The notes under the pieces are model-generated. The model made no database searches. It saw only the letters and a program-made list of their open reading frames with translations, and was not told the origin of the DNA. From NCBI GenBank assembly GCA_019694145.1, contig JAIBCJ010000001.1, forward strand, positions 1-64,000: a stretch of 64,000 nucleotides of DNA, read 5' to 3'. Shown here piece by piece: positions 22,158-61,272 of this stretch (its first letter is position 1; each line of letters begins with the position of its first letter). This stretch comes from Solirubrobacterales bacterium (GTDB taxonomy: Bacteria; Actinomycetota; Thermoleophilia; Solirubrobacterales; 70-9). The position numbers and the translations under genes were made by a program.

Positions 22158-24047
22158 CTACCTGACCAGTTCGATGGTCATGCCGATCGGACTGATCGCT
22201 CCCATGCCACCGAGCATGCCGAGAATCTTCGCTACATAGGCCTGGGTTTCGGGATAGGACGGGATGCAGTCGCAGGAACCGACCGCGCCCGGACCGGCGT
22301 TGTATGCGGCCAGGGCGAGAGCGGGCGAACCGAACTGCCGGAGCAGGTCGCTCATCAGGTGGGCCTGGGCCATGATCGCCGCCGCCGGGTCAAACGGATC
22401 ATCCAGCCCATACTCGGCCGCCGCGGCCGGCGTGAAGGCCGCGATGCCGAAGGCGATCCCGTTGCCGGCGTTCGGGTCAAAGCCCGATTCGGTGAAGAGC
22501 TGCGCGGCCAGCAATGCGGCCGAGACATTCCACTTCATGGCTGCGCGAAGGACCAGGGGCCGGACCCAGCCCGGGGTGAATGACGGCACCGCCCGCGAGA
22601 GCGCCGCCGAACGGTCGCCCCCGTCCATGCCGACCGAGTTTCCCGCATCCGAGCATGGCGCCGGGCCGGCGACGAACCCGTAATGCCAGGCTTCCCAGCT
22701 GTATCTCTGGACGAAGCCGAAACGCCCGGCGTTGGCTGCCAGCCAGCTGTAGCCGTCGGAGGCACCGAGATCGAGTTCGGTCGCGCAGCGGTGAAGCGAC
22801 TGGCCGGGCGGCGCGACCCAGGTCGGATCCGGGTTGGCCGCAAAGAGGGCTGCCTGTTCCGCGTCCGAACGAAAGGCCGAATTGATGGTCAGGCTTACTC
22901 CGGCTGCCGCGGCGGACGCGACCATCGCGTCAAAGGCGGCGGCCACGTCCGGCCGCATGCCGTGACCCTGCCGTTCGGCCAGCGGCCCGGAGTAGCCGCC
23001 GCCGCTGGCCATCGCCGGCACCGACCCCATCGAGACCGGAACGCTGACCCGGGCCTCGGCCCAGTTCGGCGGTGCCCGGTGTGCCCCGCCACCGGTTCCG
23101 GGCCGGACCGAGGTGGCGATCGAAACCCGGGCCCGCACCGGGGCATAGGAGGCGGAGTCGGGAAAACGGACCGAAACCGCGAGCGGCGAAGCCCCGTTCG
23201 ATGTCGCCGCCCCGATCGCCGCCAGCCGCGCCCGCGCGAGGTAGACCTGCTTCGGCATGTGGGCCGGGTTCGGCAGTCCGTTCGGCAGGCGCGGCGGAGC
23301 AAGCAGCCGCGGCAGGTCATCCTTCATCGAACGGACTGCGGAAAGGGCCGAGAGATCGGCTGCCCGCTGAGCCCTTGCCTTGCCGGTCACCGCCCCGGAA
23401 ATCGCGACCACCGCCACGGTCGCCAGCACCAGTGCGAAGACGCAACCGAGCACCAGCGGGGTCGCCTGCCCGCCGGTCGAACGGAGCCGGCCCAGGAGCC
23501 GCCCGCCGGCGGGCCACAGTTTCCCGGCCGCGCCCCGCACGAGTTCGACCCGATCGGCGAACTCGCCTGCCTCTTCGACGACCAGCCCGGTCAGGGCGCC
23601 GGGGCCGGCGACGGCATCTCCGGAAACCGGCGCATCGACCTCGGGGGCATCCTGTCCGGCCTCGTCGGATCTGATCACCACCCGGTCCCAGCCGAGTTCC
23701 AGCAGCTCGCGGTACCGGCCGGCCCCCGCAATCACGGCCAGGGGCCGTTCATCCACGATCTCCCGCAAGCTGATCACTTCCCCGGCCAGCCGCTCTGACT
23801 GGGCGGCTGACAGGTAGACGAGGCTCCCGCGGGCTTTCGGCTCAAGCTCCGGCAGGGCCTCCAGCAGTTCCGATTCCAGCTCCTTGGCCTCGCCGGGAGC
23901 CAGCAGGCTGGCCGGCCGGGGCCGCTCCCGACCGGTCTCCAGCACCACGCCGACCCGCCCGGCCGCCGATTCCAGAACCCGTTCGGCGGCGAGCCGTTCG
24001 GCGCCACGCGAATCGCCGATCGACCCGATCAGCAGATGCTCGCTCAT
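22158..24047 (-). CDS. TadG-like membrane protein fused to VanY carboxypeptidase and SLT transglycosylase domains
   Basis: A 629-residue four-part protein. Residues 1-185 are a soluble alpha/beta region I do not recognise. Residues 192-240 carry a TadE/TadG-type anchor (GGQATPLVL, one membrane helix, KARAQRAADLSALSAVRS). Residues 355-460 look like an M15B/VanY D,D-carboxypeptidase, with SLHRCATELD and WHYGF supplying the metal and catalytic residues. Residues 500-600 look like a lytic transglycosylase, with TESGFDPNAG (catalytic Glu near 520) and AYNAGPGAVG. Both C-terminal domains act on peptidoglycan and would lie outside the membrane. The ATG at 24047 overlaps the TadE-like stop by four bases; the longer upstream frame is a shadow of that gene. 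Confidence 0.82.
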   Translation of the reverse strand: MSEHLLIGSIGDSRGAERLAAERVLESAAGRVGVVLETGRERPRPASLLAPGEAKELESELLEALPELEPKARGSLVYLSAAQSERLAGEVISLREIVDERPLAVIAGAGRYRELLELGWDRVVIRSDEAGQDAPEVDAPVSGDAVAGPGALTGLVVEEAGEFADRVELVRGAAGKLWPAGGRLLGRLRSTGGQATPLVLGCVFALVLATVAVVAISGAVTGKARAQRAADLSALSAVRSMKDDLPRLLAPPRLPNGLPNPAHMPKQVYLARARLAAIGAATSNGASPLAVSVRFPDSASYAPVRARVSIATSVRPGTGGGAHRAPPNWAEARVSVPVSMGSVPAMASGGGYSGPLAERQGHGMRPDVAAAFDAMVASAAAAGVSLTINSAFRSDAEQAALFAANPDPTWVAPPGQSLHRCATELDLGASDGYSWLAANAGRFGFVQRYSWEAWHYGFVAGPAPCSDAGNSVGMDGGDRSAALSRAVPSFTPGWVRPLVLRAAMKWNVSAALLAAQLFTESGFDPNAGNGIAFGIAAFTPAAAAEYGLDDPFDPAAAIMAQAHLMSDLLRQFGSPALALAAYNAGPGAVGSCDCIPSYPETQAYVAKILGMLGGMGAISPIGMTIELVR

Positions 24048-24376
24048 CCCGGCCTCCCGCCCGCCTCGGCCGAAACCGCAAGCTTTTCGGACATCGAGGA
24101 GAAGAGCGAAGGCGGCCGGAGCCGGACCTTTACCCGGGACCCGACCCTCGACACCGAGACCCGGTCCCGGGCCCAGCCGGGCAATGCCTCTAGCACGGCC
24201 GGCTCGACCGGCTCGCCCCGGATCAGCGCGACCGCGCCAGCCTCGGCCGCCCCGTCGGCGATGGTCGCGGTGTAACCGGTGGCAAGCAGCTGGAAGCAGA
24301 GCAGGCCGGCCAGCATCAGGGCGGCGATGCCGCAGACCGCCTCGACCGTCGCCTGGCCCGAGCGCCCGGAATTCAT
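24044..24376 (-). CDS. TadE-like pseudopilin protein
   Basis: The 110-residue product begins MNSGRSGQATVEAVCGIAALMLAGLL, the TadE signature of a short N-terminus, a Gly/Ala-xx-Glu motif and one membrane helix. The outer part has beta-strands (RDRVSVSRVGSRVKVRLRP). TadE/F/G proteins are minor components of Flp/Tad pilus machines or, in actinobacteria, of orphan clusters of unknown role. It overlaps genes on both sides by a few bases, so all three are made together. Confidence 0.8.
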   Translation of the reverse strand: MNSGRSGQATVEAVCGIAALMLAGLLCFQLLATGYTATIADGAAEAGAVALIRGEPVEPAVLEALPGWARDRVSVSRVGSRVKVRLRPPSLFSSMSEKLAVSAEAGGRPG

Positions 24377-24735
24377 CAGCCATCTCCCAGCGAACTCGAA
24401 CCGTAGACATGGGTCTCCGGGAACCCGGGCAGCAGCCCGGGCACCCTCACCCCGACTTTGACCCCGTCTTCCTGCGAGACCTTCAGGCCCCCCTGCAGGA
24501 CCGATGGAAGCGCGTGTTCAGCCGCCCCGCGCGGGGAGTTGCCGGTGAGCACCGCCCGGGCCCCGGCCCGGGCGGCCACCCCCGCCGACCAGAGTGCCGC
24601 CCCCGCGATCGCGATCTGGGCCGCGACCAGCACGGCCAGCAGGATGATCGGCAGGGAACCGATCAACTCGAGCGAGACCGAGCCCCGCCGCGAACCGATC
24701 CCGCCCGAGCCTGCCTTTTCGCGATCCGCATCCAT
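24376..24735 (-). CDS. TadE-like protein
   Basis: The 119-residue product has SRRGSVSLELIGSLPIILLAVLVAAQIA, again the TadE pattern with the conserved Glu at the start of a single helix, then WSAGVAARAGARAVLTG. It is the first gene of a three-gene unit (TadE-like, TadE-like, TadG-VanY-SLT) with four- or three-base overlaps. Neither the TadA ATPase, the TadB/C platform nor a Flp pilin gene is in the window. The 69 bases upstream (24736-24804) presumably hold the promoter. Confidence 0.8.
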   Translation of the reverse strand: MDADREKAGSGGIGSRRGSVSLELIGSLPIILLAVLVAAQIAIAGAALWSAGVAARAGARAVLTGNSPRGAAEHALPSVLQGGLKVSQEDGVKVGVRVPGLLPGFPETHVYGSSSLGDG

Positions 24736-24804: not shown

Positions 24805-25656
24805 TCAGACCCGAATCCGGGCGAGCACCGGTGCGTGATCGGAGAGCCTGACCATCAGGCCGGTCTCCGGATCGGGCACGTCGCGCCGCGCCGGCGGCCA
24901 GGCTTCCGGCTGCTCAAGCACTTCCACCCCGCGGGAAAGCAGGTGGTCGATCGAACCCGGCGCAGTGGTTCCGGCCAGCCCGAACTCGCCTTCGAGCCGG
25001 TCGAAAACATCGCTCGAACGGGGCCTGGCGTTGAAATCGCCACCCAGGACCAGGGGGCGATCCCCCGCCCTGCCGCTGGCCAGCCGCGCCGCCCGCATCA
25101 CGTCCCCCGCCGCCCTTTCGCCGGTGCTGGCGTGAAGGTTTGCCACACAGAGGCCGCAGCCGAGTTCGACCATCGACATGACCCGTCGCTCAGGAAACCA
25201 GGTCAGGGTCGACTTCCGGAACTCCCTGATGTGGGCCCCGGGCCGGGATTTATCCAGGCCCGGGGTCGCGCCCCGGACCAGGATCAGGTTGCACCCTCCT
25301 TCCCAGCTCCCGGCCAGTTGGGGCCGGAACCTGGCGACCGGTGACATGACCGGCCGCAACCAGTTGCGGGAAGTGAGTGCGGTCCGGGCCTCGGCCCCGG
25401 TCGCTTCGGCCAGGCGGTGGGCCCAGCGAGGCGGAACTTCCTGCAGCAGGGCGATGTCCCATTTCGCGGCCGCGAGCAGGGCGGCAAACTCGTGAAAGAG
25501 GTCCCGGTTCAGGCGAACATGCTTCTTGCCCGGGATCGGTCGCCCCGTGATCCGCCAGAGGAGGTCGCCCGGCGGAACTCCGGGATCTTCCTTGCCAGGC
25601 GCCGGCGGGAAGTCGCGGCCGTGGAAGAGATTCCAGCTGAGTACCCGGAAATTCAG
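24805..25656 (-). CDS. Endonuclease/exonuclease/phosphatase (EEP) family protein, probable CTG start
   Basis: The coding frame contains all EEP landmarks in order: SWNLFHGRDF near the N-terminus, DIALLQEVPP with the metal-binding Glu, GGDFNARP, and LSDHAPVLARI with the catalytic His. The first two lie upstream of every ATG, GTG or TTG in this frame; the first canonical start, TTG at 25359, would delete them. CTG at 25656 lies ten bases after GGAGG and overlaps the previous stop as CTGA, so I start there (283 residues). Members cleave DNA, RNA, phosphoinositides or other phosphodiesters; the substrate here is unknown. Confidence 0.78.
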   Translation of the reverse strand: MNFRVLSWNLFHGRDFPPAPGKEDPGVPPGDLLWRITGRPIPGKKHVRLNRDLFHEFAALLAAAKWDIALLQEVPPRWAHRLAEATGAEARTALTSRNWLRPVMSPVARFRPQLAGSWEGGCNLILVRGATPGLDKSRPGAHIREFRKSTLTWFPERRVMSMVELGCGLCVANLHASTGERAAGDVMRAARLASGRAGDRPLVLGGDFNARPRSSDVFDRLEGEFGLAGTTAPGSIDHLLSRGVEVLEQPEAWPPARRDVPDPETGLMVRLSDHAPVLARIRV

Positions 25657-26003
25657 TAGCTGCGAGCCTCCGAGACGATCAGCCAGACGCCGACCAGGCC
25701 CGAGGCCATCAGCAGCAGCCAGGTCATCGTGCCGAAGCCGGTGGAAAACATCTTGTCCGCACCGGCGATCATCAGGACGATCAGGCCGAAACAGGAATAG
25801 AGGATCACCCGGCGCGAACCTTCAAGCGCCAGCAGCCCCGAACGGAACTCATAGGTGAGTCGGTAGACCGTCCAGGCGAGACCGGCCAGGAAGGCCATGG
25901 TGATCGTGGTCAGCACCGCATCGGCAACGTTGCCCCCGTTGGGAAGGAAGGCAACTCCGGCCGCGAGCAGGGCGATGATCGCGATGTTCCTGGCGATAGT
26001 CAC
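25653..26003 (-). CDS. Small multipass membrane protein, unknown function
   Basis: A 116-residue hydrophobic protein with four predicted membrane helices (IIALLAAGVAFLP, VLTTITMAFLAGLAWTVY, VILYSCFGLIVLMIAG, MTWLLLMASGLVGVWLI). No recognised family. The start is GTG at 26003. Its stop overlaps the putative CTG start of the EEP gene, suggesting translational coupling. It lies 40 bases downstream of the 81-residue membrane protein at the end of the phosphate island. Confidence 0.65.
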   Translation of the reverse strand: MTIARNIAIIALLAAGVAFLPNGGNVADAVLTTITMAFLAGLAWTVYRLTYEFRSGLLALEGSRRVILYSCFGLIVLMIAGADKMFSTGFGTMTWLLLMASGLVGVWLIVSEARSY

Positions 26004-60841: not shown

Positions 60842-60910
60842 TTTCGTTCGCAGACAGTGGAGACCAGAGTGCAAGGTCGCCACTGGAAAACCCGCCGGAG
60901 CGGGTTTCAG

Positions 60911-61272
60911 TGGAGACGGCGGGAATTGAACCCGCGTCCGCAGTCGCGTGTCGAAAGGCGTCTACAGGCTTAGCCGGCGCTTTGTTCTCGCCACCCGGGG
61001 TCCGCGCCGGCGGGCACTGCGGATGGCAAAGCCTCTTGAATGTCCCCCTCCGGCCAAGGCGCTCCTTCGGGGTAAGCCCGTTTCTGAAGCCGGATTTCCA
61101 CCCCACGGGCCGAGGGCGGGCCGACTCTCGTTACCTAGGTATCAGCTAGGCGGCGAGGGCGTACGAGTGTTCGTCGCCGTATATGGTTTTTTGCCGATTT
61201 TTTACGAGGCCATCGACATCCTCGACCTGCAACCCTCCGCACGGTCCGACAACGTCGAAGCCTGTCGTCCCC
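60911..61272 (-). ncRNA. ssrA: Transfer-messenger RNA
   Basis: Transcribed on the minus strand, 362 bases. The 5' end GGGGACG (61272-61266) pairs with CGTCTCC at the 3' end (60918-60912) to form the seven-base acceptor stem, with one G-U pair. The T-arm reads GGGTTCAATTCCCG. CCA is not encoded. The tag reading frame ends at TAG (61148-61146) with YGDEHSYALAA; upstream codons read K-T-I, and the exact resume codon is uncertain. tmRNA with SmpB releases stalled ribosomes and tags proteins for degradation. Confidence 0.95.

Follow-up and report, generated by a model that had tools for sequence, protein, structure and literature searches.

A TadG-type membrane anchor fused to VanY and SLT wall-enzyme domains in an apparently undescribed, split Tad-like system of the Solirubrobacterales

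In the genome of a Solirubrobacterales bacterium (GenBank assembly GCA_019694145.1), a tadE-tadF-tadG operon ends in a gene whose product joins, in one 629-residue chain, a TadG-type membrane anchor to a VanY-type carboxypeptidase domain and an SLT lytic transglycosylase domain. The operon occupies positions 22158-24735 of the 64,000 nucleotides analysed here (the window; positions 1 to 64,000 of contig JAIBCJ010000001.1), the enzyme-bearing core of its last protein is conserved through most of the order, and the motor genes of a Tad machine lie at a second locus in the same genome. We consider that the operon probably encodes part of a Tad-like (type IVc) filament machine whose genes are split between loci and which carries wall-opening enzymes of its own, a real and conserved variant of the Tad machine that has apparently not been described. 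According to a 2025 structural paper (PMC12307814), neither a peptidoglycan hydrolase nor a lytic transglycosylase had been reported in association with a Tad pilus; it suggests that wall enzymes come from outside the system, possibly through recruitment by RcpC, and treats TadG as an uncharacterised protein for which structure prediction suggests a minor pilin. A non-exhaustive literature search that combined Tad or TadG with lytic transglycosylase, VanY or Solirubrobacterales likewise turned up no such protein, in keeping with an earlier reading made from the DNA alone (hereafter the sequence-only reading), which knew of no described system of this form.

The fusion gene (22158..24047, minus strand, as are all features of the operon) is a single uninterrupted open reading frame (ORF) with its ATG at 24047 and a stop codon ending at 22158. 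Pfam recognises the three domains that the sequence-only reading had proposed, each above its curated cut-off: the Tad anchor PF13400 (residues 193-239, 23331..23471; E 4.1e-8, 33.9 bits against a cut-off of 22.3), VanY of peptidase family M15B, PF02557 (residues 362-459, 22671..22964; E 1.9e-13, 50.8 bits against 25) and SLT, PF01464 (residues 500-590, 22278..22550; E 2.4e-13, 50.1 bits against 21.3). Residues 1-185 have no Pfam match, and the Rv3654c family TadE-like model (TIGR03816) scores the protein at 29.5 bits against a cut-off of 50.95. A frameshift or an artificial joining of two genes is ruled out, homologues being open throughout: about 146 of the 232 Solirubrobacterales genomes hold an uninterrupted one at E < 1e-30, and the anchor-VanY-SLT protein is matched in 169 of them at E <= 0.001. 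The named matches are metagenome-assembled genomes (MAGs) of this order. The full core also occurs in a further family of the class, f5 (e.g. G237, G330, G242); it was not found in families f6-f12 of the class sample (399 genomes), and in a phylum sample of 396 genomes nothing beyond the class matched over the full length, the only matches there at E <= 1e-15 being to the SLT domain alone.

Active-site columns were read from 58 distinct homologues belonging to five families. S417, H419, D426, E452, W454 and H455 of the VanY domain are invariant in all 58 and form the motifs SxHx6D and ExWH, whose residues we take, from what is established for M15 peptidases, to be the zinc ligands and catalytic glutamate. 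Equally invariant in the SLT domain are E520, the catalytic glutamate of the ESxF motif that marks SLT family 1, and Y582 and N583. The sequence-only reading had raised the question of whether both active sites are complete, and for the catalytic residues they are; the glutamine of the SLT motif GIAQF, however, is kept in 50 of the 58 and replaced by alanine in the other eight, all close relatives and among them the window protein (A537). Judged by this conservation, the carboxypeptidase looks intact in all homologues, and the transglycosylase of the window species may be altered. The chemistry of M15 and SLT enzymes is itself established.

The two genes ahead of tadG encode putative minor pilins, and overlap it and each other tightly (tadE and tadF by 1 base, tadF and tadG by 4 bases). 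The first, tadE-like (24376..24735, 119 aa), has the prepilin-type site G/SVSLE ahead of a hydrophobic helix; the second, tadF- or tadE-like (24044..24376, 110 aa), has the site G/QATVE. Pfam and NCBIfam scores are under the cut-offs for both (TadE_Rv3655c matches the first weakly, at E 0.0019, and the second at E 7.2e-5), and both carry the G/xxxxE site of minor pilins and are found in the same places in the operons of relatives. TadE and TadF are processed by TadV. In TadG the corresponding site reads G/QATPL and lacks the prepilin glutamate at +5, homologues having L, V, A, M or P in this column (198). The lack of this glutamate, which TadE and TadF carry, is what one would expect of an unprocessed TadG whose N-terminus stays inside; the basic stretch GRLLGRLR ahead of the helix also suggests an N-in, C-out topology. 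The description of this protein as pseudopilin-like is therefore abandoned in favour of TadG.

Residues 1-185 (23493..24047), predicted to be cytoplasmic, had been called an unrecognised domain, and by sequence they remain one: Pfam and NCBIfam gave chance matches only, phmmer nothing, and none of 26 members of the domain family matches Pfam CbiA or AAA_31. An AlphaFold2 (AF2) model of the domain (predicted local distance difference test, pLDDT, 79; predicted template modelling score, pTM, 0.76) alternates strands and helices; Foldseek ranks bacterial tyrosine kinases (BY-kinases), ParA and MinD highest (best E 1.4e-3, none below 1e-3), and VIA-align gives Z scores of 9-11 to VpsO, Wzc, MinD (3q9l, 9.8), a ParA family ATPase (3ea0, 9.9) and signal recognition particle (SRP) GTPases. 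As modelled, the fold is that of the SIMIBI class of P-loop proteins, of MinD/ParA type and degenerate, since at the Walker A position the window protein has IGSIGDSRGAERL, without GKS/T; a related P-loop motif, GLSARCGATTVARAL, is kept in one relative. CapA/CapB kinases were considered as relatives and set aside (PDB profile search, E ~0.8, not significant). Nor is the domain always part of TadG: it is fused to it in the window genus and several related genera, whereas many relatives (among them loci L029, L032, L037, L041, L048 and L063) encode it on its own, in a gene of ~200-240 aa placed between tadF and tadG.

The fold type and the operon position are those of TadZ/CpaE, the pilus-placement proteins of the ParA/MinD superfamily. 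TadZ too has an atypical Walker A P-loop, and takes up a polar position at an early stage of pilus biogenesis (PMC6668835). The domain here differs in having no Walker A, in its size (~185 aa), in its fusion to TadG in the window genus and in having no significant sequence match to TadZ; it looks TadZ-like by fold and operon position only, its membership of the family is unproven, and a claim that it is TadZ is not established. In monoderms the membrane-associated component of the Tad machine is TadZ in Bifidobacterium breve and TadG in Micrococcus luteus, and the role of these 'exchangeable' proteins has been posed as a question in review (PMC6916266).

The sequence-only reading had also taken the operon for an orphan without TadA, TadB or TadC. 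None of the three is encoded nearby, as it held, but a motorless orphan cluster is ruled out by a second locus. The window's own genome, a 2.55 Mb MAG that is 81% complete, has a single secretion ATPase, TadA/CpaF (C144:10014-10841), with TadB and TadC beside it, a CpaB (SAF PF08666 match; RcpC PF16976 below cut-off), a histidine kinase and an OmpR-type regulator, the whole adjoining the dcw genes murE-ftsI-ftsL-rsmH-mraZ. The block of response regulator, histidine kinase, CpaB, TadA, TadB and TadC stands next to mraZ-rsmH-ftsI in each of the order's four families, where the simple gene caller used missed some parts, and also in f5. No TadZ is encoded at the motor locus; where the TadZ-like domain has a gene of its own, this sits between tadF and tadG. 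A short prepilin peptidase (142 aa; PF01478, E 5.3e-15) is encoded on yet another contig. With an ATPase, the platform proteins TadB and TadC, a prepilin peptidase and minor pilins bearing G/xxxxE sites, the system is filed as Tad-like, a Flp major pilin not being detected by PF04964 in the window's genome. The split is conserved through the order and is no artefact of assembly, for closed genomes show it as well, with 0.94, 0.72, 0.39, 0.55, 0.82, 0.33 and 0.16 Mb between TadG and the motor.

Such distances, together with the absence of a motor from the operon, might suggest that TadG is a free-standing wall hydrolase tethered to the membrane by a Tad-type anchor, and that TadE, TadF and TadG are not parts of one machine with the remote TadABC. 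We think this distinctly unlikely. TadE and TadF are retained alongside TadG throughout, with their prepilin sites intact; the window's genome has one secretion ATPase and one PF13400 protein, the 629-residue TadG itself; and the TadA of the dcw-adjacent locus tends to occur where TadG does and to be missing where TadG is missing. Of the 138 genomes whose listed matches include a strong TadA, with dcw-type TadA defined as a match that begins no later than query residue 20, 100 have both proteins, 13 have TadA only (mostly incomplete MAGs), six have TadG without dcw-type TadA and 19 have neither (Fisher p 3e-10, ignoring kinship), the last group being largely clade g29-g31 plus G012.

Of 12 genomes, G169 alone gave a PF04964 match for a classical Flp, and this Flp is part of an additional tad locus of the classical kind. 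That locus (L095, C1:1330000-1346000), which coexists with the split system, encodes Flp, a TadE-like protein, CpaB, TadZ, TadA, TadB, TadC and a PF13400 TadG without enzyme domains; classical loci with Flp, CpaB, TadZ, TadA, TadB and TadC are also present in G133 and G239, of clades that lack TadG-VanY-SLT. In family f5 a small Flp-like ORF without a Pfam match adjoins the motor block. The window's genome encodes, 6 kb from its prepilin peptidase gene, a 300-aa protein (C129:1172-2074) with the Flp-like start GQSTIEWVGLITLVAALMAAL (G/QSTIEW) and a large unrecognised C-terminal part, relatives of which occur in 115 of the 232 order genomes at E <= 0.001, often with a ~225-aa paralogue; they are common in families f1 and f4 and not strictly tied to TadG. 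Being absent from some genomes with TadG and present in G012, which lacks it, this protein is not supported as an obligate partner.

The scarcity of Flp invites the thought that there is no pilus, in the sense of a long adhesive filament, and that a Tad-derived machine with a dcw-linked motor and a short pseudopilus places or switches on the TadG hydrolases for wall remodelling or division. The absence of a PF04964 match from 11 of the 12 genomes speaks for it, as do the conserved position of the motor locus beside mraZ-rsmH-ftsL-ftsI, enzymes that are integral to the machine and the MinD/ParA-like character of the inner domain. Closeness to dcw genes, however, is not function; genomes without TadG-VanY-SLT also have TadA genes; Flp-like proteins with a prepilin-type site do exist, and a divergent Flp may escape PF04964, which matches only one of 14 control genomes. 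Moreover, whole clades (g29-g31) have lost the system, which is therefore not essential for division. On these grounds we judge a pilus-less machine unlikely.

Among known systems, the closest are the Tad/Flp (type IVc) machines of M. luteus and B. breve, which share TadA, TadB, TadC, TadE, TadF, a PF13400 TadG and a separate prepilin peptidase with the system described here. In M. luteus the genes are likewise divided between two loci, both of which are needed (PMC6916266, PMC4322843). The present system departs from these in the VanY and SLT domains of its TadG, in the distance of tadE/F/G from the motor, in the motor's place beside dcw, in keeping CpaB and in having no detected classical Flp. 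One actinobacterium is known to take up DNA by a Tad-dependent route that requires TadE, TadF and TadG-like proteins (PMC4322843), and a competence pseudopilus like the Flp system of M. luteus, with hydrolases that open the wall for incoming DNA, might be imagined here too; no com gene was seen beside either locus, ComEA and ComEC not having been searched for, and we hold this to be very unlikely. Lytic transglycosylases that serve a single machine are familiar from type III and type IV secretion and from flagella, and NCBIfam weakly matches the SLT part of TadG to IagB and a flagellar enzyme; those, however, are separate proteins, whereas here the enzyme sits, alongside a carboxypeptidase, in the membrane component itself. 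The VanY domain shares its zinc ligands, catalytic glutamate and Pfam family with the VanY/VanX/LdcB-type M15 peptidases, and differs from them in its Tad-helix anchor, in having no resistance context and in scoring far below the cut-offs of NCBIfam VanY-type models.

The flanks of the operon are conserved, with phoU/phoB-like genes and the gene of a small membrane protein at one end and (MaoC)-uvrC-rapZ at the other. The membrane protein (25653-26003 in the window, no Pfam match) is conserved and found with the tadE/F/G operon in most of the order. Two relatives have a further gene here: an M23 endopeptidase gene of G062, whose product has a FlgD-Ig-like domain, lies between tadF and tadG within the operon (L053:6698-7513), and in G237 of family f5 a gene for a CAP-domain protein directly follows tadG-vanY-slt (L119:5258-6214). 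The window also holds a tmRNA gene (60910-61272) with the tag peptide GDEHSYALAA.

Several observations count against a split Tad-like machine with its own wall enzymes. Nothing links the tadE/F/G and motor loci physically, and the co-occurrence of TadA and TadG is largely clade-wise. Classical Flp was not found by PF04964 in the window's genome (81% complete) nor in 10 of 11 others, and the 300-aa Flp-like protein is also present in G012 without TadG. Comparison of the inner domain with classical TadZ of the same class gave no significant sequence or profile match (hhalign probability under 1%). Finally, the SLT domain of the window species has A537 in place of the glutamine of G-[LI]-[MA]-Q, and AF2, given 11 sequences, did not model the VanY and SLT regions with confidence, both falling below pLDDT 60.

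The leading interpretation is nevertheless still the one put forward by the sequence-only reading, in which the wall is opened for an envelope machine. The operon would contribute the TadE, TadF and TadG parts of a Tad-like machine in a single-membrane actinobacterium, to which the distant dcw-adjacent locus would supply TadA, TadB, TadC, CpaB and a two-component pair, and a third place the prepilin peptidase. No secretin was found in 14 genomes, in keeping with a single membrane, and the wall would then be the main barrier. TadG would cross the membrane, its degenerate MinD/ParA-like domain, which has the look of a TadZ derivative, docking to or placing the machine from the cytoplasm. Outside, the zinc D,D-carboxypeptidase would trim stem peptides and the lytic transglycosylase would cut glycan strands, both beside the machine and kept in position by the TadG helix together with the TadZ-like domain on the cytoplasmic side, and this local cutting would let a filament or pseudopilus through the thick wall. 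A further-reaching and rather doubtful idea is that the Thermoleophilia possess a conserved Tad-derived machine, encoded beside the division genes and controlled by the two-component pair, that has no classical Flp pilus, whose TadG joins a TadZ-type placement domain to outer enzymes and lets the machine choose where the wall is opened, and whose role may be to remodel the wall and not to adhere.

The passage of Tad filaments through the wall is an open question, and here carboxypeptidase and transglycosylase domains are found fused to the uncharacterised TadG itself, an arrangement of two wall-enzyme domains that is conserved in most of an order. Furthermore, the fusion of a ParA/MinD-like domain to TadG in the window genus suggests that TadZ and TadG act at one place.
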